Positions 2,657-11,215 of a stretch of DNA of 22,333 nt are shown here, one piece after another. Position 1 is the stretch's first letter; each line of letters opens with the position of its first letter. The stretch comes from a virus, in IMG/VR virus record IMGVR_UViG_3300025652_000621, positions 1-22,333 of that record. The stretch is one strand, 5' to 3'. A program made the translations under genes and the position numbers. The notes beneath the pieces are model-generated. The model did no database searches and was not told the origin of the DNA. It saw only the letters and a program-made list of their open reading frames with translations.

Positions 2657-3120
2657 TGAAAAAGATTCTGTTAACTACTGTATTGGCTACACTGGGTACA
2701 TCTGTTTATGCTGATGAAACGGTGAATGCTCGGGTTAAAGATCATTATACAACTGTATATGAGTCAGTTCCGGTGTCAAAACGCTATTGTGAGAATGTAG
2801 AAGTTCCAGTATATGGAAATAGACATACTCAAGGTAATGCTGCAGGAGGAGCTATTCTTGGAATGATCATTGGCGGTCTTGCTGGTAAAGCTGTCACTGG
2901 TAAAGACAATGGTGCAGCAGCAGGTGCTATTATGGGTGGAGTAATCGGTGCCGACAGAGCCGCCAAACCCAAGAATGAAATTGTTGTTACTGGTTATCGT
3001 ACAGAGCGCCAATGCAATGATGTTACTGAATACGTAAATAAACAAAAAAAAGTTTATGATTATTCAACTTTAGGGTTTACATTGGACGGCAAACGGTATA
3101 GAATAGAATTTATCAAATAG
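2653..3120 (+). CDS. secreted glycine-zipper protein
   Basis: A 155-residue exported protein. Residues 1-20 form a classic signal peptide (MMKK, a hydrophobic stretch, then SVYA before Asp), predicting cleavage after Ala20 and export to the periplasm or outer membrane. Residues 62-100 are a glycine-zipper pair of membrane-associating helices with repeated GxxxG spacing (GGAILGMIIGG, then GAIMGGVIGA), as in the 17-kDa surface antigen and SlyB-like proteins. Two cysteines (about 46 and 121) flank the zipper and could form a disulfide. There is no lipobox. GGAAG five bases before the ATG supports the start. The role is unknown; envelope modification, superinfection exclusion or lysis help are possible. 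Confidence 0.75.
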   Translation: MMKKILLTTVLATLGTSVYADETVNARVKDHYTTVYESVPVSKRYCENVEVPVYGNRHTQGNAAGGAILGMIIGGLAGKAVTGKDNGAAAGAIMGGVIGADRAAKPKNEIVVTGYRTERQCNDVTEYVNKQKKVYDYSTLGFTLDGKRYRIEFIK

Positions 3121-3131
3121 GAGAAACTAGT

Positions 3132-3208
3132 GCGGGTGTAGCCCAAAGGTAGGAGGCACCAGACTTAAAATCTGTACAGTGTGGGTTCGAATCCCACCAC
3201 CCGTACCA
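3132..3208 (+). tRNA. tRNA with UAA anticodon (Leu codon UUA), short variable loop
   Basis: Complete 77-base cloverleaf. Acceptor GCGGGTG pairs with CACCCGT (closing G-U), D stem GCC/GGC, T arm GTGGG-TTCGAAT-CCCAC, discriminator A and encoded CCA. The anticodon loop CTTAAAA gives UAA. Two oddities: the variable loop is only five bases, whereas bacterial leucine tRNAs have a long variable arm, and the first anticodon-stem pair is C-U. Charging as leucine is therefore inferred from the anticodon only. Confidence 0.8.
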
Positions 3209-3218
3209 ATAAATCCTT

Positions 3219-3246
3219 TCCGGTTCGAGTCCGGATGGGAGTACCA
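3219..3246 (+). pseudogene. orphan tRNA 3' half
   Basis: A perfect T arm (TCCGG, loop TTCGAGT, CCGGA), the 3' acceptor strand TGGGAGT, discriminator A and CCA, but no matching D arm, anticodon arm or 5' acceptor strand (ACTCCCA) before it. Only 10 bases separate it from the previous tRNA's CCA. It is a tRNA remnant or a minihelix-like element. Confidence 0.75.
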
Positions 3247-3260
3247 TATAAAAAAAATAT

Positions 3261-3351
3261 GGAAGTGAGACTTGGTAGTCAGAGGAGTCTTATAAGCTCT
3301 TTGCGCCAGATTAGCGCCTTTGAGGTGGTTCGAATCCACCCACTTCTACCA
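3261..3351 (+). tRNA. class II tRNA with apparent UAU anticodon
   Basis: A 91-base tRNA with acceptor GGAAGTG/CACTTCT, T arm GGTGG-TTCGAAT-CCACC, discriminator A and encoded CCA. The anticodon stem GGAGT/GCTCT encloses CTTATAA, reading UAU (Ile codon AUA). The variable region is 23 bases with its own GCGC/GCGC stem, the shape of Leu, Ser or Tyr tRNAs. Body class and anticodon disagree, so the amino acid identity is uncertain; a leucine-type body is suggested by discriminator A. Confidence 0.7.
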
Positions 3352-3380
3352 AATAAAAATGAAAAAAATTCGTTTTAGGG

Positions 3381-3410
3381 TTTAAAACCGATTTAAAACG
3401 TATATATACT
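3381..3410 (+). promoter_or_regulatory. promoter for the mini-cistron
   Basis: TTTAAA at 3381-3386, an 18-base spacer and TATACT at 3405-3410, preceded by TTAGGG as at other sites in this region. It lies just upstream of a 38-codon frame that ends in a terminator, forming a self-contained small transcription unit inside the tRNA cluster. Confidence 0.55.
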
Positions 3411-3436
3411 ACTAACAATAGGAATCAATCCAAAAT

Positions 3437-3553
3437 ATGTCCATTCACTTTACATATCCACTCCAGTCAACGGCCGCAGTCTCATGCGATCGCAGATCTA
3501 TGGGTAATGGCAAATGGCAGATTAATAACATTGAGGGTTTTGGAAACGGATAG
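3437..3553 (+). CDS. 38-codon mini-gene or leader peptide
   Basis: A small frame of 38 residues, beginning MSIHFTYPLQ and ending NNIEGFGNG, bounded by a promoter 27 bases upstream and a strong terminator 28 bases downstream. AGGA lies 13 bases before the ATG, longer than ideal. No family is recognised. Its last codons (GAG GGT TTT) coincide with a nine-base segment complementary to the 5' arm of the terminator, so translating ribosomes would cover that segment. The frame may thus be a leader peptide that controls termination, or a real tiny phage protein. Existence of the frame is certain; expression is inferred from the flanking signals. Confidence 0.45.
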   Translation: MSIHFTYPLQSTAAVSCDRRSMGNGKWQINNIEGFGNG

Positions 3554-3589
3554 TAACAATTAAATAGTTACAAGTTTTTTAAAACCCTC
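3533..3589 (+). promoter_or_regulatory. candidate antiterminator pairing
   Basis: GAGGGTTTT occurs at 3533-3541 and again at 3605-3613. Both copies are complementary to AAAACCCTC at 3581-3589. The second pairing is the terminator stem; the first would exclude it. A small hairpin (GTAAC/GTTAC, 3553-3571) lies between. The first copy lies inside the last codons of the 38-codon frame, which gives attenuator-like geometry. Confidence 0.45.
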
Positions 3590-3617
3590 CAAGTGAAAAC
3601 TTCGGAGGGTTTTTTAT
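3581..3617 (+). terminator. intrinsic terminator
   Basis: AAAACCCTCC then AAGT, a GAAA tetraloop, ACTT with one bulged C, then GGAGGGTTTT and a T run. This gives a long GC-centred stem followed by uridines, the clearest factor-independent terminator in the window. Confidence 0.9.
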
Positions 3618-3713
3618 TATGGTGTCACTGATGGTTCAGACGGTTCTCTCATAAGGAACTATGGAAGATTCAATTTCTTCTGACACTACCAAGAAAAAAA
3701 TTTAAATTAGGTG

Positions 3714-3742
3714 TTTACAACCCGATTTGAATAATGTAAGAT
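3714..3742 (+). promoter_or_regulatory. promoter of tRNA-like element copy 1 and tRNA-Tyr unit
   Basis: TTTACA at 3714-3719, a 17-base spacer and TAAGAT at 3737-3742. Transcription would begin near 3749 and run into the structured leader, the first tRNA-like element and tRNA-Tyr. Confidence 0.65.
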
Positions 3743-3748
3743 ACTAAT

Positions 3749-3882
3749 ATGAGGACGAAGAGATCATATCAATCTCCTCAAAGTGGAAATGCGGAACGAG
3801 ACTGCGGTAACCCCACTATAAACAAATACCGAATGGGCGTACTGGAGGATGGAAGCGTAAGCTGAAAAATCCCAGATAATAT
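3749..3882 (+). ncRNA. structured leader RNA with a 38-codon frame
   Basis: Hairpins visible directly: GAGAT/ATCTC near 3761-3777, AGTGG/CCACT spanning about 3783-3819, CTGG..GGAT pairing with ATCCCAG around 3842-3874, and AGC-GTAA-GCT with a GNRA tetraloop at about 3854-3863. The stretch also contains an ATG frame of 38 codons (3749-3865) that starts exactly where transcription from the 3714 promoter is expected, so it would be leaderless. The hairpin content suggests the RNA itself matters; no RNA family is recognised. Confidence 0.45.
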
Positions 3883-3992
3883 TATTCTATTTTCACATGT
3901 ACACAAACCAGTTGTAGCTACCTGGTAGTGGACTATATGTATCGAGATACGAAAACACGTTCGATTCGTGGTGTACAGTTGTAAATAGAATA
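3883..3992 (+). ncRNA. tRNA-like RNA in a long helix, copy 1
   Basis: An outer helix of 10 pairs (3883-3892 with 3983-3992), a T-T mismatch, CA/TG, a 2x2 internal loop (CA opposite GT), then a 7-pair acceptor-like stem TGTACAC/GTGTACA (3898-3904 with 3971-3977). Inside are a D-arm-like hairpin ACCAG/CTGGT, a small GTAT/ATAC hairpin, and a T-arm-like hairpin CACG-TTCGATT-CGTG that directly abuts the acceptor 3' strand, as in tRNA. No CCA is encoded. The helix ends one base before tRNA-Tyr. The motifs TTTTCACATG and CAGTTGNAAA recur in copy 2 at 7236-7401. Confidence 0.65.
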
Positions 3993-3993
3993 T

Positions 3994-4078
3994 GGGAAGG
4001 TAAAGTCGGGGGTTCCGACACGCGGACTGTAAATCCGTTCTTTAACCGGGAGAGGTTCGAGTCCTCACCTTCCCACCA
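3994..4078 (+). tRNA. tRNA-Tyr (GUA)
   Basis: An 85-base class II tRNA. Acceptor GGGAAGG/CCTTCCC is perfect, the anticodon stem GCGGA/TCCGT encloses CTGTAAA (GUA), a variable arm is present, the T loop is TTCGAGT, discriminator A and CCA are encoded. The outermost T-stem pair appears to be A-A. Confidence 0.9.
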
Positions 4079-4083
4079 ACAAC

Positions 4084-4159
4084 GTTCCTGTAGCTCAGCG
4101 GTCAGAGCTGCCCGCTCATAACGGGTAGGTCGTAGGTTCAAATCCTACCGGGAACACCA
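4084..4159 (+). tRNA. tRNA with CAU anticodon (Met or Ile2)
   Basis: A 76-base cloverleaf: acceptor GTTCCTG/CGGGAAC, anticodon stem GCCCG/CGGGT with loop CTCATAA (CAU), T arm GTAGG-TTCAAAT-CCTAC, A, CCA. The paired first base argues against initiator tRNA. Elongator Met and lysidine-modified Ile (AUA) cannot be separated here. Confidence 0.9.
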
Positions 4160-4201
4160 AATTTTATGTGGCGCAGGGTAATACCCGTAAGGCGTTATAT
4201 T

Positions 4202-4275
4202 GTAGGTATAGTGTAATGGTAACACGGCGGCTTCCAATCCCGCAAATCTGGGTTCGATTCCTAGTACCCTCGCCA
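4202..4275 (+). tRNA. degenerate tRNA, Gly(UCC)-like
   Basis: D arm GTG/CAC with a GG-containing loop, T arm CTGGG-TTCGATT-CCTAG, 3' acceptor strand TACCCTC, discriminator G and CCA are all present. The 5' acceptor strand GTAGGTA leaves T-T and A-C mismatches, and the anticodon stem GCGGC/CCCGC ends in a C-C mismatch. The loop region CTTCCAA is that of tRNA-Gly(UCC), but strict 5+7 spacing would read CCA (Trp). Either a decaying gene or one needing correction. Confidence 0.6.
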
Positions 4276-4285
4276 ACAAATGGTC

Positions 4286-4313
4286 CTGAGTTCGAATCTC
4301 AGGGGATTCACCA
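4286..4313 (+). pseudogene. orphan tRNA 3' half
   Basis: A perfect T arm CTGAG-TTCGAAT-CTCAG, 3' acceptor strand GGGATTC, discriminator A and CCA. It follows the previous tRNA's CCA by 10 bases, leaving no room for the rest of a tRNA, and no matching 5' acceptor strand (GAATCCC) precedes it. The arrangement matches the fragment at 3219-3246. Confidence 0.75.
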
Positions 4314-4323
4314 TTATTTTGAT

Positions 4324-4429
4324 GATACACTAGAAGTTCCTGTGGCGACCAAGCGATTGGGGGAAGATAGGAACGTAAAGAGCGAAATTACTGGCCTTAG
4401 CGTGTCAACACCTCAGTAGCTAGTGTATC
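4324..4429 (+). ncRNA. compact structured RNA closed by a 10-bp stem
   Basis: GATACACTAG (4324-4333) pairs perfectly with CTAGTGTATC (4420-4429). Inside are GTTCCT/AGGAAC enclosing CCAA-GCGA-TTGG with a GNRA tetraloop, a GTAA/TTAC hairpin, and ACTG/CAGT enclosing GTG-TCAA-CAC. This is a 106-base multi-branched fold with no convincing long frame. I do not recognise the family; ribozyme, riboregulator or assembly RNA are open. The next gene starts 38 bases downstream. Confidence 0.6.
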
Positions 4430-4467
4430 TTCTAAGTAATAGAATAGGTGGCTGTAAGGGGTCAGCG

Positions 4468-4596
4468 ATGACACTAAAGAAAGCGAAACGAAAGTTGAGT
4501 GTTAAATTTTGTAGGAAGCTTCAAAAGATGCCTGCACAGAAACGATTAGATGAGATATTGAAAGGCACTCATAAACGAAATAAAAAGCCTAGGTAG
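4468..4596 (+). CDS. small, very basic protein overlapping tRNA-Phe
   Basis: A 42-residue protein rich in Lys and Arg (begins MTLKKAKRKLSV, ends THKRNKKPR), with no acidic run or membrane segment. AAGGGG six bases before the ATG is a good ribosome binding site. The frame's last ten bases overlap the 5' end of tRNA-Phe, whose acceptor strand supplies the stop codon context. The charge suggests RNA or DNA binding; this is composition-based inference only. It may be co-transcribed with the structured RNA upstream. Confidence 0.55.
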   Translation: MTLKKAKRKLSVKFCRKLQKMPAQKRLDEILKGTHKRNKKPR

Positions 4597-4662
4597 CTCA
4601 GTTGGTAGAGCAGTTGGTTGAAGCCCAGCGTGTCGGCGGTTCGATTCCGTCCCTAGGCACCA
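4587..4662 (+). tRNA. tRNA-Phe (GAA)
   Basis: A 76-base cloverleaf: acceptor GCCTAGG/CCTAGGC perfect, D arm GCTC/GAGC, anticodon stem GTTGG/CCAGC with loop TTGAAGC (GAA), T arm GGCGG-TTCGATT-CCGTC, A, CCA. Confidence 0.95.
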
Positions 4663-4671
4663 AATTAAAGG

Positions 4672-4700
4672 TTTACAATTGTTTTCACTTAGTATAGAAT
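4672..4700 (+). promoter_or_regulatory. promoter for the 4728-5678 genes
   Basis: TTTACA at 4672-4677, a 17-base spacer and TAGAAT at 4695-4700 (TATAGA overlaps it), preceded by AAAGG. It sits just after tRNA-Phe and before the acidic small gene, heading a three-gene operon. Confidence 0.7.
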
Positions 4701-4727
4701 AACACTATCAACAATGGAGAATACAAT

Positions 4728-4883
4728 ATGACACTTTCTTTTAATCCACTTGACCCATACGTAAAAATGGTAATGGAAGTTTCTGATGAAACTCTTGTTC
4801 GTTTCTTTGACTCCATGGGTATCGACATCAAGATTAATGTTGAAGACGAAGATGAAGGTATTCTATACGATTGTGAGGCATAA
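4728..4883 (+). CDS. small acidic protein
   Basis: A 51-residue protein beginning MTLSFNPLDPYV, ending in a strongly acidic tail (VEDEDEG then ILYDCEA). GGAGA eight bases before the ATG and the promoter at 4672 support it as a real gene. Its stop overlaps the next start (TAATG), so the two are coupled. No family is recognised. Acidic phage proteins this small are often DNA mimics or inhibitors, but nothing in the sequence proves that. Confidence 0.7.
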   Translation: MTLSFNPLDPYVKMVMEVSDETLVRFFDSMGIDIKINVEDEDEGILYDCEA

Positions 4884-5164
4884 TGGTTAAGGTTCTTATA
4901 TACGGCTCAAAAGAGCTTTATGACGATTCGTCTTATGAAGGACGAGCCGAAGCTGATATTGTTCTTTATAGAGATAAAGATGATACTTATCACGCGAGAA
5001 AGAACCGTACCGGTCGCTATATTGGAAAATATTTATATGGTGGTATGCTTGAACACGTTCTTAACCGGATTGAAAATGATGAATGGGAAGCCGATATGAA
5101 ATCATATAAGCTTCAGCAGAAATATAAAGACCATCATTTAATCGAATTGAGTAAAAATGGCTGA
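4883..5164 (+). CDS. unrecognised protein, 93 residues
   Basis: A soluble protein with a beta-rich first half (MVKVLIYGSKELYDD, then ADIVLYRDKDDTYHARK) and a helical, charged second half. No catalytic or binding motif is recognised. It starts on the TAATG junction with the acidic gene and overlaps the HAD-like gene by eight bases, so the three are probably made together from the promoter at 4672. Confidence 0.7.
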   Translation: MVKVLIYGSKELYDDSSYEGRAEADIVLYRDKDDTYHARKNRTGRYIGKYLYGGMLEHVLNRIENDEWEADMKSYKLQQKYKDHHLIELSKNG

Positions 5165-5678
5165 TAGAAAATACTTGGTGTTTCTAGACATTGATGGCGT
5201 ATTTACTTCGTCTCGTGTACATTATGCACACAACGCAGTTTATGAAATGTGGCACAGGTTTGACCCTGTTGCAGTTGACTTTATGAACAAAATCCATGAT
5301 CGTTATCCAGTTCAATTTGTTTTGATCTCGACTTGGAAGAATTATCTTCGTAATGACGATAATCAAATCGAACATTGGATCCGTGCAGCATTTGCCAATT
5401 CTGGTTTTAGAGGTGATTTTCCAACAATGTGGAAAACCGATCCAGAAGAAACTTGGATTAATAAAGGTCACGGATACAATCGTGCCCACGAAATTATAGA
5501 CTATCTGGCAGATTACGCAACAGATGTTAAAGACTACATTATCTTTGATGATAATGATTATGAGTTTAAAAATGTGTTGGGTAAAAGCAGATTGGTTAGA
5601 ACAGATGCAGAAGAAGGCTTACTGTTCAAACATATGAAAAATGCTCAAAGTCTTATGGGACAATGGCACGAAAAATAA
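5157..5678 (+). CDS. HAD-superfamily phosphatase-like protein
   Basis: A 173-residue HAD-fold protein. Motif I is FLDIDGV, with the nucleophile Asp11 and Asp13; motif II is LISTWK (about 56-61); Lys103 in NKGHGYNR is a candidate motif III; and motif IV is FDDND (about 130-134). The ISTWK and DDND pattern is typical of stand-alone HAD domains related to the phosphatase part of Swiss-army-knife RNA repair proteins. A nucleotide or RNA-end phosphatase, analogous to the 3'-phosphatase of T4 polynucleotide kinase, would fit a region full of tRNA genes, but that link is inference. It ends two bases before a tRNA-like gene. Confidence 0.75.
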   Translation: MADRKYLVFLDIDGVFTSSRVHYAHNAVYEMWHRFDPVAVDFMNKIHDRYPVQFVLISTWKNYLRNDDNQIEHWIRAAFANSGFRGDFPTMWKTDPEETWINKGHGYNRAHEIIDYLADYATDVKDYIIFDDNDYEFKNVLGKSRLVRTDAEEGLLFKHMKNAQSLMGQWHEK

Positions 5679-5679
5679 T

Positions 5680-5762
5680 GCCTGAGTAGCTGATGTGGTC
5701 TTAGCGGCGAGTTGAAGCGCTTCAACTTGGAGATGTCCGTTCGATCCGGACCTCAGGCACCA
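5680..5762 (+). tRNA. tRNA with palindromic, undecodable anticodon arm
   Basis: Acceptor GCCTGAG/CTCAGGC and T arm GTCCG-TTCGATC-CGGAC are perfect; the D arm GCT/AGC is normal; a five-base variable loop, discriminator A and CCA are present. The anticodon arm (5708-5729) is 22 instead of 17 bases and contains the 18-base perfect palindrome AGTTGAAGCGCTTCAACT, which folds as a nine-pair hairpin with loop GCGC. No U33-anticodon arrangement with a paired stem can be found, so no codon can be assigned. Confidence 0.7.
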
Positions 5763-5777
5763 TATAAAGTGAAGCTT

Positions 5778-5990
5778 ATGCAGAATGATATCAAACTAAT
5801 CGCTAAAAAGCTAAAAGAAGCACGAAAGCTTCCTGAAAACAGTACAACCGAGTACAATCATAAGCAAGTGATACTCAATCATTGGAAGCTTGAGAGATAC
5901 ACGCTCAAGAAAGCGATTGAACAAGATATCAGAACTCGTAATTATTTTGAAAATAATGGTTTACATTTACACAGAATCAGTATATTCTAA
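5778..5990 (+). CDS. small helical charged protein
   Basis: A 70-residue protein starting MQNDIKLIAKKLKEA, predicted all-helical, Lys-rich and soluble. The frame extends upstream into the preceding tRNA, so the ATG at 5778 after that tRNA is taken as the start; the ribosome site (GAAG) is weak. No family is recognised. A promoter-like sequence lies inside its last codons, reading into the next membrane protein gene. Confidence 0.55.
   Translation: MQNDIKLIAKKLKEARKLPENSTTEYNHKQVILNHWKLERYTLKKAIEQDIRTRNYFENNGLHLHRISIF
5960..5988 (+). promoter_or_regulatory. promoter for the 6017 gene
   Basis: TTTACA at 5960-5965, a 17-base spacer and TATTCT at 5983-5988 (TATATT overlaps), preceded by GG. It is embedded in the end of the upstream gene. 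Confidence 0.55.
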
Positions 5991-6016
5991 TAATGTAAGT
6001 AACGAAAGGAACTAAA

Positions 6017-6208
6017 ATGAAAACTGCTACTGTAATTGCACTTATTTTCACTGTCCTGACTTGGGTCTTTCTCTGGCCTCTCGCAATGATCTGGGCTATC
6101 AATACTCTGTTCGCTATGGGTATTGCCTACACATTCTGGAACTGGCTTGCCATGATCGTTCTGACTGCGTTCTTCGGTAGAGCTTATCTCAAGGTAAACA
6201 AGGACTAA
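6017..6208 (+). CDS. small two-helix membrane protein
   Basis: A 63-residue, very hydrophobic protein with two probable transmembrane helices (about residues 6-30 and 33-54), rich in Trp and Phe, with a short basic tail RAYLKVNKD. AAGGA six bases upstream gives a strong start. It probably sits in the inner membrane. Phages use such proteins for superinfection exclusion, holin-like functions or membrane remodelling; nothing here decides which. A basic small gene follows after five bases. Confidence 0.7.
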   Translation: MKTATVIALIFTVLTWVFLWPLAMIWAINTLFAMGIAYTFWNWLAMIVLTAFFGRAYLKVNKD

Positions 6209-6213
6209 AGAAA

Positions 6214-6378
6214 ATGAAACCAAAACCAAAGGTGCCTAAGGAACGAAACGAAGCTGTTTTTCAATTGATTAAAAGAGCTGGTTCTGGTTCTGGTGTGCAC
6301 GGTAAATCTCGAAAGGCAGAACGTAGAGCTGCTAAGATTTCTATACAGCAAAAATGGACCACTAGCTCAGTTGGTTAA
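6214..6378 (+). CDS. small basic protein overlapping tRNA-Lys
   Basis: A 54-residue protein (MKPKPKVPKERNEA..., central GSGSGVHGKSRKAERR) dominated by Lys, Arg and small residues. A Gly/Ser patch followed by HGKSRKAERRAAK resembles short basic proteins seen next to tRNA genes in many phages; this is recollection of a pattern, not a search. The frame ends inside the D-arm region of tRNA-Lys, so 23 bases serve both genes, including the whole 5' acceptor strand of that tRNA. Probably nucleic-acid binding. Confidence 0.55.
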   Translation: MKPKPKVPKERNEAVFQLIKRAGSGSGVHGKSRKAERRAAKISIQQKWTTSSVG

Positions 6379-6432
6379 AGCAGGGGACTCTTAATCCCAA
6401 GGTCGTGGGTTCGACTCCCACACGGCACACCA
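6356..6432 (+). tRNA. tRNA-Lys (CUU) with mismatched acceptor stem
   Basis: D arm, anticodon loop CTCTTAA (CUU), T arm GTGGG-TTCGACT-CCCAC, A and CCA are all as expected. The 5' acceptor strand GGACCAC against ACGGCAC leaves only three of seven pairs, and the top anticodon-stem pair is G-A. The mismatched strand is exactly the part that overlaps the 54-residue coding frame. It may be inactive or depend on correction. Confidence 0.7.
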
Positions 6433-6436
6433 AGAC

Positions 6437-6520
6437 GGTAGACGGCCCGGACGGTAAGGGGCGGGATTGCAAATCCCAGGCAGCGAAAGCTATGCGGTTC
6501 GACTCCGCAGTCTACCTCCA
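6437..6520 (+). tRNA. tRNA with GCA anticodon (Cys), long variable arm
   Basis: Acceptor GGTAGAC/GTCTACC and T arm TGCGG-TTCGACT-CCGCA are perfect, discriminator T and CCA are encoded. The anticodon stem has four pairs around TTGCAAA (GCA). The variable region is about 14 bases with an AGC-GAAA-GCT hairpin; cysteine tRNAs normally have four to five bases here. Confidence 0.8.
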
Positions 6521-6526
6521 AATTTT

Positions 6527-6598
6527 TGTCTCATAGCTCAACGGTAGAGCAAACGGGCTGATAATCGTTAGATGGGAGTTCGATTCTCCCTGAGACAA
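6527..6598 (+). tRNA. tRNA-Ile (GAU), eight-base loop, no encoded CCA
   Basis: Acceptor TGTCTCA/TGAGACA, D arm GCTC/GAGC and T arm GGGAG-TTCGATT-CTCCC are intact. The stem AACGG/TCGTT encloses GCTGATAA, eight bases, with GAU as the anticodon. The discriminator A is followed by TCA, not CCA, so the end would need CCA addition by the host. Confidence 0.75.
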
Positions 6599-6619
6599 TC
6601 AATATAAAAAGAGAATGAT

Positions 6620-7105
6620 ATGTTTACTGAGAAACAAATTACAGATATGGTTGATCTATTAATTGACTGTAATGAAGATACAAAGGTTTATCTTGGTTGT
6701 GACTCAGTTCGCTATGTCAAGGGTGATAGGTTTTGGGGAAGATTTGCTACTGTTGCTATTGTTCATATGAACGGCAATAAAGGTTGTAAAATCTTTTCAA
6801 ATGTGTCACATGAGCCTGATTATGATATGAAAGCAAATCGTCCTAAGATGCGGATGATGAAAGAAGTTCAAAAGGTCTGTGAATTGTATATACAGATTGG
6901 TGCTTTCATTGATGAGTTTGATATTGAAATCCATCTTGATATTAACACTGATCCAATGCACGGTTCAAACTGCGCTGCAAGTGAAGCGGGTGGTTATGTT
7001 CTAGGTATGACAGGTATTCAACCTAAGCTTAAGCCTGATAGTTGGGCAGCAAGCTTTGGTGCTGATGGTGTTGCTCATGGTAGAACAGAAAAAAGTGTGA
7101 ATTAA
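6620..7105 (+). CDS. YkuK-type RNase H-like nuclease
   Basis: A 161-residue protein of the RNase H-related YkuK (DUF458) family. Recognisable blocks are VYLGCDSV (Asp28), HLDINTDP (Asp107), the long motif around SEAGGYVLGMTGIQPKLKP, and SWAASFGADG (Asp149); the spaced aspartates fit an RNase H-like metal site. Members are about 150-170 residues, so it is full length. The biochemical substrate is not settled, and RNA or RNA-DNA cleavage is inferred from the fold. It stands alone between tRNA-Ile and a promoter, inside the RNA gene region, so a part in tRNA or structured-RNA processing is attractive but unproven. Confidence 0.88.
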   Translation: MFTEKQITDMVDLLIDCNEDTKVYLGCDSVRYVKGDRFWGRFATVAIVHMNGNKGCKIFSNVSHEPDYDMKANRPKMRMMKEVQKVCELYIQIGAFIDEFDIEIHLDINTDPMHGSNCAASEAGGYVLGMTGIQPKLKPDSWAASFGADGVAHGRTEKSVN

Positions 7106-7118
7106 TTCATTTTAGGGG

Positions 7119-7147
7119 TTTACAAAGATACATAGATATGTTAATAT
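7119..7147 (+). promoter_or_regulatory. promoter of the second RNA unit
   Basis: TTTACA at 7119-7124, a 17-base spacer and TAATAT at 7142-7147, preceded by TTAGGGG. It reads into about 1.4 kb with no convincing gene except RNAs: tRNA-like copy 2, tRNA-Asn, a structured RNA, tRNA-Arg, tRNA-Ser and another structured RNA. Confidence 0.75.
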
Positions 7148-7235
7148 ACTTATATCAGATCAAATAGATCTACGCTCTTTTAAAATTTAAAACTTTCTCT
7201 TAGGTATAATCCGATAATAGAGATGAAAATAGAAA

Positions 7236-7401
7236 CTCTGTTTTCACATGCTAATGAATTGGTAAGGTAATTCGGTTCGACTCCGACTAGGTCTTGGTGA
7301 CTATGCGAAGGTTCAAATCCTTCTTAATACTTGGTGTAGCAAATAGGGATATCTCCCGCCGAGTAGGTTCGATTCCTACACATTAGCAGTTGAAAACAGA
7401 G
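7236..7401 (+). ncRNA. tRNA-like RNA in a long helix, copy 2
   Basis: An outer helix of 11 unbroken pairs (7236-7246 with 7391-7401), a 2x2 internal loop of CA opposite GT, then an 8-pair acceptor-like stem TGCTAATG/CATTAGCA (7249-7256 with 7381-7388). Inside lie three T-arm-like hairpins with seven-base loops: TCGG-TTCGACT-CCGA (7272-7286), GAAGG-TTCAAAT-CCTTC (7307-7323) and GTAGG-TTCGATT-CCTAC (7363-7379). The last lies one base from the acceptor strand. A D-loop-like TTGGTAAGG follows the 5' acceptor strand. It shares TTTTCACATG and CAGTTGNAAA with copy 1, while helix sequences differ but still pair. Confidence 0.68.
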
Positions 7402-7505
7402 CTTCAAAGATAGAGTCGGTATCAATAGTGTTGAGATACTAAACAATGGCTATTATCTACCGTATGGACTTCTAATAAATTTGACATGCGGTTACAACGA
7501 ATTAT
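7402..7505 (+). other. spacer with one hairpin
   Basis: No gene is seen between the second tRNA-like element and tRNA-Asn. One interrupted hairpin is visible: AATAG and TGTT pairing with AACA and CTATT at about 7423-7456. It may be a processing spacer. Confidence 0.35.
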
Positions 7506-7581
7506 TCCCAAGTAGCTCAGTAGGTAGAGCAACTGACTGTTAATCAGTGGGTCGGCGGTTCGAGCCCGTCCTTGGGAGCCA
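7506..7581 (+). tRNA. tRNA-Asn (GUU)
   Basis: A fully canonical 76-base tRNA: acceptor TCCCAAG/CTTGGGA, D arm GCTC/GAGC, anticodon arm ACTGA-CTGTTAA-TCAGT (GUU), T arm GGCGG-TTCGAGC-CCGTC, discriminator G, CCA. Confidence 0.97.
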
Positions 7582-7591
7582 AATTAAGGTA

Positions 7592-7866
7592 CTATCTTTG
7601 TAATCCGAAGATAGCTAAGTCGCCCTAGGGTCGAGTGGGTATGCCATAGGTAAGGGATAACAACGGCAGGCTCATTGCGTAGTACCGGTTGCCCTTACTA
7701 AAGAATTAAGGTGACAACTATGTGAGAGTAGTTCTGAGTGTGATTATCGTTAGGTTCAATGACTCAATTCTTAATTAGCAATCTCACTTGCGGATTGAGG
7801 AGCTATTGTTCGGCCTGGGATCGGTCTGTAAGTCCTGATGATTACATGCGGTTTATGTCACCTTAA
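7592..7866 (+). ncRNA. structured RNA between tRNA-Asn and tRNA-Arg
   Basis: Visible helices: CTATCTT/AAGATAG (7592-7614); GTAAGGG/CCCTTAC (7650-7656 with 7692-7698), with further pairing of CAACGG to CCGGTTG inside; the palindrome CCCTAGGG at 7623-7630; a 10-pair long-range stem TTAAGGTGAC/GTCACCTTAA (7706-7715 with 7857-7866) enclosing about 140 bases; and within it CAATC/GATTG. No good reading frame is present. It fills the gap between two canonical tRNAs almost completely, and may form one transcript with the structured region after tRNA-Ser. Family not identified. Confidence 0.58.
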
Positions 7867-7875
7867 ACTATTAAT

Positions 7876-7951
7876 GACTCCTTAGCTCAGTGGATAGAGC
7901 AAGTGCCTTCTAAGCACTAGGTCGAGGGTTCGAATCCTTCAGGGGTCGCCA
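7876..7951 (+). tRNA. tRNA-Arg (UCU)
   Basis: A canonical 76-base tRNA: acceptor GACTCCT/AGGGGTC with one T-G pair, anticodon arm AGTGC-CTTCTAA-GCACT (UCU, codon AGA), T arm GAGGG-TTCGAAT-CCTTC, discriminator G, CCA. AGA codons are frequent in this AT-rich DNA. Confidence 0.96.
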
Positions 7952-7956
7952 ACAAT

Positions 7957-8046
7957 GGAAGCGTGTCCGAGTGGTTTAAGGAACTGGTCTTGAAAACCAG
8001 CGAGGGTGAAAGTCCTCCGTGGGTTCGAATCCCACCGCTTCCGCCA
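7957..8046 (+). tRNA. tRNA-Ser (UGA)
   Basis: A canonical 90-base class II tRNA: acceptor GGAAGCG/CGCTTCC, anticodon arm with loop CTTGAAA (UGA), long variable arm GAGGG/TCCTC, T arm GTGGG-TTCGAAT-CCCAC, discriminator G, CCA. Confidence 0.97.
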
Positions 8047-8048
8047 TA

Positions 8049-8149
8049 ATAGACTGGATATAATCACCCCCTTGTGAGGGTGACCCAAGGACTCAGTAAC
8101 GAGATACAGCGAAGAGTTGTTGGTCAAGGGTGCAAACACCCCAGTCTAT
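8049..8149 (+). ncRNA. structured RNA domain closed by a 9-bp stem
   Basis: ATAGACTGG (8049-8057) pairs with CCAGTCTAT (8141-8149). Inside are TCACCC/GGGTGA (8064-8069 with 8078-8083), a less certain middle branch, and GGTG-CAAA-CACC near 8129-8140. It begins three bases after the CCA of tRNA-Ser and looks like the first domain of the larger RNA that follows. Confidence 0.58.
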
Positions 8150-8164
8150 ACTTATTCACTGTGT

Positions 8165-8460
8165 AAGAGGTCGACATCTTGCATAGAGAGAACACTGCAT
8201 ACCCCATGGAACCTCGGGGTACCGACGATGACAGTTGTCGTGCAGGGGTAAAAGTCCCAACTGGGGGTTCTGGGAATACTGTTTGAAGCGTCCTCTGAGC
8301 CGCTAACCGATTCCGGATAAGAGGTTAGCTAAGACGCGGATGACGACCTTAGTTAAAGCAGGTGAAACAAACTGGTCGTAAAACTGACTACAACCTGAGT
8401 AGAAATAAACGTTGTTAAACTGCTCTCGAAATTAAAATATGTCAATGCAGGTTTGCTAAC
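8165..8460 (+). ncRNA. large multi-hairpin RNA, GOLLD-like in setting
   Basis: Direct complementarity shows TACCCC/GGGGTA (8200-8205 with 8216-8221), CGAC/GTCG (8223-8226 with 8237-8240), GCGTC/GACGC (8288-8292 with 8333-8337) enclosing a perfect seven-pair GCTAACC/GGTTAGC (8302-8308 with 8323-8329), and ACGACC/GGTCGT (8343-8348 with 8374-8379). No open frame explains the stretch. Established knowledge: GOLLD is a very large ornate RNA found in phages next to tRNA genes. Inference: this region, perhaps with 7592-8149, belongs to that kind of RNA. I cannot confirm the family by eye. Confidence 0.5.
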
Positions 8461-8497
8461 AGTAACAGATATCACAGGCGTCATATCACTACTGCTG

Positions 8498-8524
8498 TGA
8501 GGTTCGATTCCTCAATTGATACCA
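8498..8524 (+). pseudogene. orphan tRNA T-arm with acceptor strand and CCA
   Basis: A perfect T arm TGAGG-TTCGATT-CCTCA, then ATTGATA and CCA. Only six bases plus discriminator, or seven without one, separate T arm and CCA. TATCA just upstream (about 8484-8488) could pair with TGATA, giving a minihelix rather than a full tRNA. Third such fragment in the region, here at the 3' end of the structured RNA. Confidence 0.6.
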
Positions 8525-8542
8525 ATTAAAAGGAATTATGTT

Positions 8543-8773
8543 ATGGAACCAATCTCAATCGCATTTATGTTTATCATCGCCGTGGCTATGGGCGAAGAAA
8601 ATAAAGCACAGGCTGAATATATCGATGAACTTCATTATGAAATGCAACAACTTGAGTCTTGGAACTATCGTCTATCTGGTGGACTTGCCGACATTGCTGG
8701 TCGAGAGAATATGAATGATGCTTCTCAGCAAGCCCAGATTGATGCACTTGTTAGAAAAGTTCTTTCCGAATAA
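8543..8773 (+). CDS. membrane-anchored helical protein
   Basis: A 76-residue protein with one N-terminal hydrophobic segment (ISIAFMFIIAVAMG, about residues 4-17) followed by a polar, Glu- and Gln-rich stretch (about 18-76) that looks coiled-coil. The start is the ATG after the orphan tRNA fragment; AAGGA nine bases upstream supports it. The shape, an inner-membrane anchor plus periplasmic helix, and the small lipoprotein gene 11 bases downstream recall i-spanin/o-spanin lysis pairs, but the protein is short for an i-spanin and has no other spanin mark. Function unknown. Confidence 0.65.
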   Translation: MEPISIAFMFIIAVAMGEENKAQAEYIDELHYEMQQLESWNYRLSGGLADIAGRENMNDASQQAQIDALVRKVLSE

Positions 8774-8946: not shown

Positions 8947-9615
8947 ATGGGAATTACACCTAGTCCTAAATATAGTTTACCGACGCTGGATATAGCTCCG
9001 CTGAGAAATGTCTGCCTTGCTGACACCGGGATTAGGATGCATGATTCATTTATTGGTGACGTGATTAAGCTTGAATCTAAAGGTAAGTGGACTCATTCTA
9101 AGTGTTCCCACCGTGAGTACAAAGAAAACAAGGGATACCGAGATCCGAACGGCATCGAGAAGATAGATTTAGATCACAGAGTAATTGTAAGGCAGCTTAA
9201 ATCTACTATTAAACAGGAAACTCAATTAGGCATGTATGGCAACATACATGACAATAGCGATAAGGTATCCGTTGCCATACGAGAAGCATTGGGTTCAAAA
9301 GCCCAATATTTTTCGAATATGATGATGCTAAAATTTAACTCGGATCAGGGGCTTATTCCTCACAAAGACGGCGTAGGCGTTGCCAGATTGTATATCCCAA
9401 TTTATCCTTTTGGAGAAGATTATAGCCGCTTAGAGTTTTATTGGGAAAATCAGATCTATTACCTTTATAATTATATCTCACCACCGCCAATTTATTTGTT
9501 TAGTAGTAAAGTTATTCATAGCGTATTCAATCAGGGATATCCTACTAGATTAAATTTACAGGTCACTTGTGACTTACCATATGAAGAAGCAGTTGAGATG
9601 TTTAATGAGAGTTAA
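8947..9615 (+). CDS. 2OG-Fe(II) dioxygenase-like protein
   Basis: A 222-residue protein with the double-stranded beta-helix motif set of 2-oxoglutarate and iron dependent dioxygenases: HKD (His139, Asp141) followed by a beta strand ARLYIPIYP, then IHSVFNQGYPTRLNLQ with the distal metal His191 and the 2OG-binding Arg201. Such enzymes hydroxylate proteins, nucleic acids, lipids or small molecules using oxygen and 2-oxoglutarate, so activity depends on the host's TCA metabolism. GGAGA upstream supports the ATG. It overlaps the next gene (radical SAM) by 11 bases and opens the enzyme cassette. Substrate unknown. Confidence 0.75.
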   Translation: MGITPSPKYSLPTLDIAPLRNVCLADTGIRMHDSFIGDVIKLESKGKWTHSKCSHREYKENKGYRDPNGIEKIDLDHRVIVRQLKSTIKQETQLGMYGNIHDNSDKVSVAIREALGSKAQYFSNMMMLKFNSDQGLIPHKDGVGVARLYIPIYPFGEDYSRLEFYWENQIYYLYNYISPPPIYLFSSKVIHSVFNQGYPTRLNLQVTCDLPYEEAVEMFNES

Positions 9616-11215
9616 GTTTCTAGCGTTTAGCTATACGAAACCATATTCGTTTAATCCTATTGCATATTGGTTGCGTTCATTCTATAAGAAGAATGGAAAG
9701 CATTACGACAAATATGAATGGCTTCAAACTGAATACTTTTATGATGAAGCTGTTGTAGATAGAATCATAGATGAAGGGACGAATATTCTCTGTCTGTCAG
9801 TTTATATTTGGAACTTTGAAAGTATGATGAAAGTTGCAGAAGAAGCTAAAGCCAAAAATCCAGGTCTTATAATATATGTTGGTGGGCCAGAGTGTCATGC
9901 TCATACCGAAGATGGCTGGTTTGAAAAATACCCATTTGTAGATTTAGCAATATATGGTGATGGTGAAAAGGCGTTTGCTGATCTTCTTGACTGGGAAATT
10001 GAGTCACTTCCTTTTCTGTCTGATATTCCAAACATAGTTTACCCACAACATAAATCAAAACACCAAATTTTTAGATTTAGAGAATATAAAGAATACAGCC
10101 CATATTTAGATTTAAAAGAAGATTTTTTATTAGACTATAAATCATTTAAATCTAAAGTCGATAATGCCTTTGTATATCTGCCATATGAAAGAACAAGAGG
10201 GTGCATGTATTCGTGCGCGTTTTGTGATTGGCAAGGTGGACTTCATTATAAAGTGAATAGTCGTATCAATGACTATAAACCTGAAATTGATTTCTTTGTT
10301 GAAAATAAAATTAGATCTATGCATATTGATGCAAATGTTGGCATGTCTAAAGAAGATATCCCTCTTTATGAATATGTTTATGATAAAATGCAAGAGAATG
10401 ATTTAAACTTTATTCCAACAGAACCAAGAAATATGGCAAAGTTGAATAAGGATAAAGTTGCTAAAATCTATGATATACTATGCAAAGCATCTCCGAATTA
10501 CAATGTAAAGGTTTCTTTGCAATCCATTTATGATGATGTTCTTTCATATATTGATAGACCTGATGTTCCTTGGGATAAGCATAAGCAAATAATTATGAAA
10601 ACAAAGTCAGATCATCCTGGCATTAAAGTTATTCCAGAACTTATTATGGGTTTGCCTGGTATGACATACGAAAGAATTAATGAAACTCATTTAGAGTTTA
10701 CTGATATTCCTATGACTCACATTTATGCATATGAATGGATCCTTTTAAAGAAAGCTCCTGCGTATTCTAAAGAGTATAGAGATCGTAATAATCTAACAGC
10801 AACTAAAACATTTTATCCAGCCATTTTTACAGGTCTTGATGCTGATGCGATATGCTATGATGATTTTATAGAGGATCCAAATATTCCTATTAATAAGAAT
10901 CAAGCATACTTTATTGATATGGTATATGACACAACTCTTGGAATCAAAGGCGTGATTTATAATAAAATCATTACACGAGTTTACAATCGTATGGCATATG
11001 ATCCAAGGTTTGGTAGAGAATGGCTCACTGAATATTTAGCTAAACATATGGACTACTATCTAGAAATTGCAGAGAAAGAAGCTAAAATTCAAGATGACTT
11101 TTTTGCACAATATGGGTTTTATGTTTGGGGAAAGTGTGATGTAATAGGAAATAAGATAAACAATTATGAAGCGGTCATTGATCAGTATATAGATCCTACT
11201 TTAGGAATAAAGTAA
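9605..11215 (+). CDS. B12-binding-domain-type radical SAM protein
   Basis: A 536-residue enzyme with an N-terminal cobalamin-binding-like Rossmann domain (about residues 1-135; motifs LCLSVYIWN, YVGGPE and GDGEKAF typical of this class) followed by a radical SAM domain whose iron-sulfur ligands are Cys200, Cys204 and Cys207 in GCMYSCAFC. PELIMGLPGMTYE near residue 345 is the usual later radical SAM strand. The DxHxxG cobalamin ligand motif is not evident, as in many members. Such enzymes methylate or rearrange unreactive carbons. The ATG at 9605 overlaps the upstream stop; an upstream extension would add 12 unlikely residues. Substrate unknown. Confidence 0.87.
   Translation: MRVKFLAFSYTKPYSFNPIAYWLRSFYKKNGKHYDKYEWLQTEYFYDEAVVDRIIDEGTNILCLSVYIWNFESMMKVAEEAKAKNPGLIIYVGGPECHAHTEDGWFEKYPFVDLAIYGDGEKAFADLLDWEIESLPFLSDIPNIVYPQHKSKHQIFRFREYKEYSPYLDLKEDFLLDYKSFKSKVDNAFVYLPYERTRGCMYSCAFCDWQGGLHYKVNSRINDYKPEIDFFVENKIRSMHIDANVGMSKEDIPLYEYVYDKMQENDLNFIPTEPRNMAKLNKDKVAKIYDILCKASPNYNVKVSLQSIYDDVLSYIDRPDVPWDKHKQIIMKTKSDHPGIKVIPELIMGLPGMTYERINETHLEFTDIPMTHIYAYEWILLKKAPAYSKEYRDRNNLTATKTFYPAIFTGLDADAICYDDFIEDPNIPINKNQAYFIDMVYDTTLGIKGVIYNKIITRVYNRMAYDPRFGREWLTEYLAKHMDYYLEIAEKEAKIQDDFFAQYGFYVWGKCDVIGNKINNYEAVIDQYIDPTLGIK

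Follow-up and report, generated by a model that had tools for sequence, protein, structure and literature searches.

GOLLD (RF02032) and ROOL (RF03087) are phage RNAs of unknown function that occur near tRNA islands and form RNA cages (PMC12286853). Both form homo-oligomers, and ROOL is often found close to phage tRNA islands (PMC12286853). In T4, rnaC (species 1, 139 nt) and rnaD (species 2, 119 nt) are annotated small stable RNAs directly 3' of tRNA-Arg. The record states no function for them, Rfam has no match for either, and the predicted fold of rnaC contains a T-arm.

The window analysed here is the whole of IMG/VR record IMGVR_UViG_3300025652_000621, a fragment of 22,333 bases with a T4-type gp32 gene whose best phage relatives are marine. 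The stretch 8049-8524, which follows tRNA-Ser(UGA), was originally predicted to be a single large multi-domain RNA, GOLLD-like in setting, or failing that a new large phage RNA. The features on which that prediction was built are real: all the named helices are at their places, the stretch closes with a T-arm and CCA, and no frame is gene-like (the longest stop-free frame has at most 66 codons). The data support a structured, noncoding, tRNA-associated sequence that has no Rfam match. The reading favored here, with a probability of about 0.6, is that 8049-8524 is the end of the tRNA array and encodes three independent RNAs, modules A, B and C, followed by a degenerate tRNA-like element, all in tRNA orientation (Table 1). 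The structures, their modularity and their position are shown by the comparisons below; the figure also covers the more tentative co-transcription and processing with the tRNAs. The new phage RNA of the prediction is in this reading several RNAs, not one.

Table 1. Features of the window. Positions are those of the window; paired segments are separated by a slash.
Feature	Positions	Strand	Remarks
tRNA array	3132 to 8046	+	11 ARAGORN tRNAs, every one on the + strand
D frame copies, TCTRTTTTCACA..GTTGWAAAYAGA	3886-3989 and 7237-7400		enclose tRNA-like RNAs with T-arms
F frame copy, GATGATACAC..GTGTATCTT	4321-4431		
tRNA-Ser(UGA)	7957-8046	+	CCA ends just upstream of module A
Module A	8049-8149	+	cloverleaf-like RNA; covariance model R1 matches 14 contigs, the window among them
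A closing stem, 9 bp, ATAGACTGG/CCAGTCTAT	8049-8057/8141-8149		
A helix P1	8050-8057/8141-8148	+	
A helix P2	8064-8069/8078-8083	+	near-invariant loop
A helix P3	8085-8088/8120-8123	+	
A exchangeable P3 tip	8089-8119	+	ACTC..GAGT hairpin
A helix P4	8129-8132/8137-8140	+	CAAA loop
Module B	8159-8258 (approx.)	+	9 distinct sequences
B 10-bp hairpin	8159-8168/8177-8186	+	palindromic loop GGUCGACA
B helix P2	8195-8199/8241-8245	+	
B helix P3	8200-8205/8216-8221	+	
B helix P4	8246-8248/8256-8258	+	
Module C	8288-8436 (3' limit approx.)	+	5 distinct sequences
C helix P1, GCGTC/GACGC	8288-8292/8333-8337	+	covaries
C helix P2, GCTAACC/GGTTAGC	8302-8308/8323-8329	+	covaries
C helix P3	8344-8348/8374-8378	+	within ACGACC/GGTCGT, 8343-8348/8374-8379
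C pseudoknot	8350-8353/8387-8390	+	TAGT in the P3-hairpin loop with ACTA
C invariant hairpin	8391-8394/8411-8414	+	
Degenerate tRNA-like element	8441-8524	+	ARAGORN at the 50% threshold only; relative in L060

Comparison with known RNAs

The original prediction proposed an Rfam scan and a search for homologs with covariation, and both were carried out. Above gathering scores the scan of the window returned tRNAs only, and at E<=5 nothing convincing apart from tRNA was found in 3100-8700. Weak tRNA-Sec and plastid matches overlap tRNAs or sit outside 8049-8524 and were set aside. GOLLD was sought with a covariance model of its conserved 3' region (gathering score 150 bits); the window has no match at E<=10, and 3100-8700 has none at E<=5. 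The search works, because it also found GOLLD in nine related contigs; eight of these matches exceed the gathering score, and the ninth, located close to the end of its contig, reaches 126 bits. Module A is present in the GOLLD-bearing contigs L026, L027, L032, L034 and L036, and module C in L025, L060 and L064; in L036, about 1 kb separates A from GOLLD within a single array. GOLLD in these relatives is an RNA separate from A and C, so A, B and C accompany GOLLD there and are not GOLLD itself. The setting, a phage-borne structured RNA close to tRNAs, is shared with GOLLD as predicted; membership in the family is not. The L036 GOLLD (2809-3271) is a full RNA, in the same array as A, that overlaps a predicted tRNA. 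The ROOL covariance model (gathering score 99.1 bits) matched neither the window nor 19 related contigs, and the control genomes were negative as well.

tRNAs (RF00005) resemble the modules in size and array position, and A has a cloverleaf-like shape in which one loop resembles an anticodon loop; at the 3' end of 8049-8524, the T-arm and CCA add to the likeness. A, B and C themselves, however, have no tRNA model match, no CCA and no T-arm, and 8049-8440 gave neither an Rfam tRNA match nor an ARAGORN call.

T4 rnaC and rnaD are the best parallel to the window RNAs. Both sets belong to the tRNA cluster of a T4-type phage (for the window by the evidence of gp32 and position), share the strand of the tRNAs and lie a few nt from a tRNA, but there are two RNAs in T4 and many modules here. 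The parallel does not extend to homology: nhmmer found no match to rnaC or rnaD at E<=1, and the best R1 score in the T4 region, 7.6 bits, is at background level.

Structure and distribution of the modules

A blastn search of 50,697 phage records for copies of the 8049-8524 RNAs gave chance or tRNA matches only. Relatives were sought in IMG/VR, where the neighboring gene RNaseH_like (6620-7102) served as bait and led to 19 loci, and pattern scans with conserved pieces added further loci. The relatives, given here by L numbers, are metagenomic contigs throughout, many of them incomplete, and contigs of near-identical phages are not independent. Most matches to the short pattern AGAGAACACTGCATAC are chance, and the single pattern match in bacterial and archaeal genomes, L065, is scored as background by model R1.

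Module A folds into four helices, a closing stem and three hairpins. R1, built from 8 sequences, matches 13 contigs besides the window, with a single copy per record where the whole record was searched. The covariation count uses 13 distinct rows, including a partial row for L037, which was taken as a chance match (16 bits, without tRNAs) yet was kept in alignment A3. In this alignment, which was fitted to the structure, 98.2% of cells are paired and 12 of 22 pairs show double changes, values reached by none of 500 shuffles; sliding the partners by 1-3 columns reduces pairing to 27-45%. With an unfitted MAFFT alignment, examined separately, RNAalifold reports double changes in 6 of 15 pairs. 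The P2 loop is CUUGUGA in relatives and has one additional C in the window copy, and the stem of P4 covaries beneath its constant loop. The tip of P3 is a GNRA tetraloop in L017, L018, L023, L031, L032, L034, L035 and L036, and a larger hairpin in the window, L024, L026, L027 and L033; the hairpin of the window recurs within another RNA, a D frame, in L011. CCA ends 2-4 nt upstream of A in all 13 contigs inspected. A occupies a tRNA-sized slot in L026 and in L036, where 5-7 nt separate it from tRNA-Met on one side and from tRNA-Ser on the other.

The two other modules pass the same controls. For B, 98.1% of cells are paired and double changes affect 8 of 24 pairs (0/500 shuffles; slid structures collapse). 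The most divergent copy, in L061, has its first stem fully rebuilt, with wobble pairs, and the hairpin loop is palindromic in both observed forms, GUCGAC and the UUCGAA of L061. For C, a small sample of 5 sequences, 96.9% of cells are paired and 9 of 28 pairs show double changes, the pseudoknot included; again no shuffle in 500 reaches the observed value and slid structures collapse. The pseudoknot covaries through UAGC/GCUA and AAGU/ACUU variants. The ACGACC/GGTCGT helix is invariant apart from the outermost pair, which does not form in 4 of the 5 sequences, and in the L060 copy a different hairpin stands in place of the first two helices. Covariation in the relatives is decisive for structure beyond chance in A, B and C. 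Folding energy gives z of -2.5 against shuffles for the whole 476 nt, which is moderate, and -4.1 for 8049-8149 alone.

The remaining segment, 8441-8524, is a degenerate tRNA or tRNA-like RNA with a 6-7 bp acceptor, a D-like hairpin, an enlarged 'anticodon' loop, a T-arm and CCA. Its relative in L060 (14789-14888, E 1.5e-6) retains the acceptor, a T-arm with covarying pairs, and conserved GCAGGTTTGC and ATCACAGGCGTC. An intron-containing tRNA ending near 8524 was considered, and ARAGORN with introns gives none; a possible 5' tRNA half, GGTATCAA at 7419, was discarded, as the acceptor partner is present locally.

The single multi-domain RNA of the original prediction is not supported, because A, B and C each occur separately in other phages. 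A is found without adjoining B or C in L026, L014, L017, L018, L036 and L031, and in L031 module C is 3.3 kb away. B occurs without A in L007, L025, L054, L056 and L061; C occurs without B in L031/L063 and L060/L064, and without adjoining A or B in L031 and L060. A and B are together in the window, L024, L023 and L034/L035, and B and C in the window, L025 and L061/L062. On the comparative sequence evidence A, B and C are newly recognised structured RNAs as far as the open-licence literature goes (an earlier description elsewhere is possible), and related marine phages shuffle them, together with tRNA-like RNA, among tRNA genes.

Frames and exchangeable domains in related arrays

Locus comparison reveals that the stretches between tRNAs in the relatives are mosaics of conserved pieces. 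Two of these are frames around variable interiors. Frame D (UCURUUUUCACA..GYUGAAAAYAGA) occurs 20 times in 14 loci, including twice in the window; the copy at 7237-7400 holds three T-loop motifs within 140 nt and shares 80% identity with L016 11824-11996. Frame F (GAUGAUACAC..GUGUAUCUU) occurs 13 times in 10 loci, including once in the window. In many inner domains of the frames a T-arm adjoins the closing stem. Inner domains are common to the two frames: one in D at L025:796 and in F at L033:1661 shares 85% identity over 109 nt, and a second swap links L025:66 (D) with L054:365 (F) at 76% over 54 nt. These cases suggest a natural exchange of RNA domains between scaffolds.

A tentative extension is that the tRNA arrays of marine T4-type phages are a noncoding-RNA cassette system, in which constant stems (the A core, D and F) would display exchangeable domains. 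If so, the phage would have at its disposal a rapidly evolving supply of tRNA-like RNAs to use as decoys or effectors against host factors. Folding z of 120-nt pieces across the arrays (mean -0.9, against -0.7 on the reverse strand) is uninformative, and the wider claim is independent of it. Related arrays hold many RNAs of the rnaC/rnaD type, sometimes beside GOLLD, with covariation-backed structures, near-invariant loops and clear boundaries, and these make the role of noncoding RNAs in phage tRNA arrays directly testable.

Other conserved pieces were seen in the window. One of about 62 nt at 7646-7707, between tRNA-Asn and tRNA-Arg, is 100% identical in L004 and 98% identical in L007, in phages otherwise diverged; it is also present in L003, L024 and L026 and has no Rfam match. 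A noncoding piece at 3755-3880 belongs to a 127-nt stretch conserved at 97% identity in L007 and recurs in L002, L003, L004, L014, L017, L018, L023, L032 and L034. A probable tRNA-Tyr(GUA) at 3999-4078 is missed by ARAGORN at default and found at a lower threshold. A gene within the array, 5157-5675, has the HAD domain PF18143 (Swiss Army Knife RNA repair proteins) and is possibly related to RNA repair.

Possible roles and alternative explanations

Separate modules are favored because covariation passed both controls, the modules occur apart, A stands just after a CCA, all three are on the tRNA strand, and T4 offers a parallel. The modules would be co-transcribed with the tRNAs and cut out by processing of the flanking tRNA ends, which would yield stable RNAs about 75-150 nt long that are comparable to rnaC and rnaD of T4.

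As to function, the best guess, speculative and weaker than the proposed processing, is tRNA mimicry: the modules would serve as decoys or competitors for a host factor that binds tRNAs, for example a synthetase or a defence nuclease that cuts tRNAs. In A, the near-invariant CUUGUGA loop would be the part presented and the P3 tip the part that varies. In size and in its U-turn pattern (C-U-UGU-G-A) that loop is like an anticodon loop, the region of tRNAs that is read by threonyl-tRNA synthetase and by some anticodon nucleases. Against mimicry by A, the neighboring helices are out of tRNA order, the T-arm and CCA are lacking and a G follows UGU; the likeness of the loop could be coincidence.

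Somewhat less probable is that the modules serve processing or spacing, or are selfish inserts on mobile tRNA arrays, and that their product has no function of its own. Insertion directly after tRNA ends, the mosaic order and the interruption of a tRNA-Asn by an endonuclease-like gene in L007 would all fit, but the conservation of sequence and pairing, with near-invariant loops, across divergent phages exceeds the needs of spacing. Self-association into RNA-only assemblies like the GOLLD and ROOL cages, for instance through the palindromic loop of B, is improbable. It draws on the homo-oligomers of those RNAs (PMC12286853), on the presence of GOLLD in the same arrays and on the retention of the palindrome through a double change (between GUCGAC and UUCGAA), which is however one event only, in a loop that in L061 also resembles an ordinary T-loop; A and C have no such loop.

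A single GOLLD-like RNA folding as a unit from 8049 to 8524 is very unlikely. The helices are contiguous, B and C are adjacent in three lineages and A and B in several, and true GOLLD is present in related contigs, but the window matches neither GOLLD nor ROOL, the modules are found separately, and the energy-model fold of the whole reaches only z -2.5. Decayed tRNA genes with chance helices, suggested by the final 84 nt, are refuted for A, B and C by conservation with compensatory changes, and the chance of this explanation is negligible.

In the related arrays, homing elements are suggested to act, because endonuclease-like genes interrupt or trail tRNAs in L007 (tRNA-Asn, 9164-9960) and L026 (the apparent 5' part of a tRNA-Val, 7617-8069). 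Permuted tmRNA genes are present in L024 (11042-11405), L013 (2963-3362) and L019 (8444-8710). Rfam tmRNA_permuted matches all three, and alpha_tmRNA also matches those of L024 and L013, a hint of alphaproteobacterial hosts.
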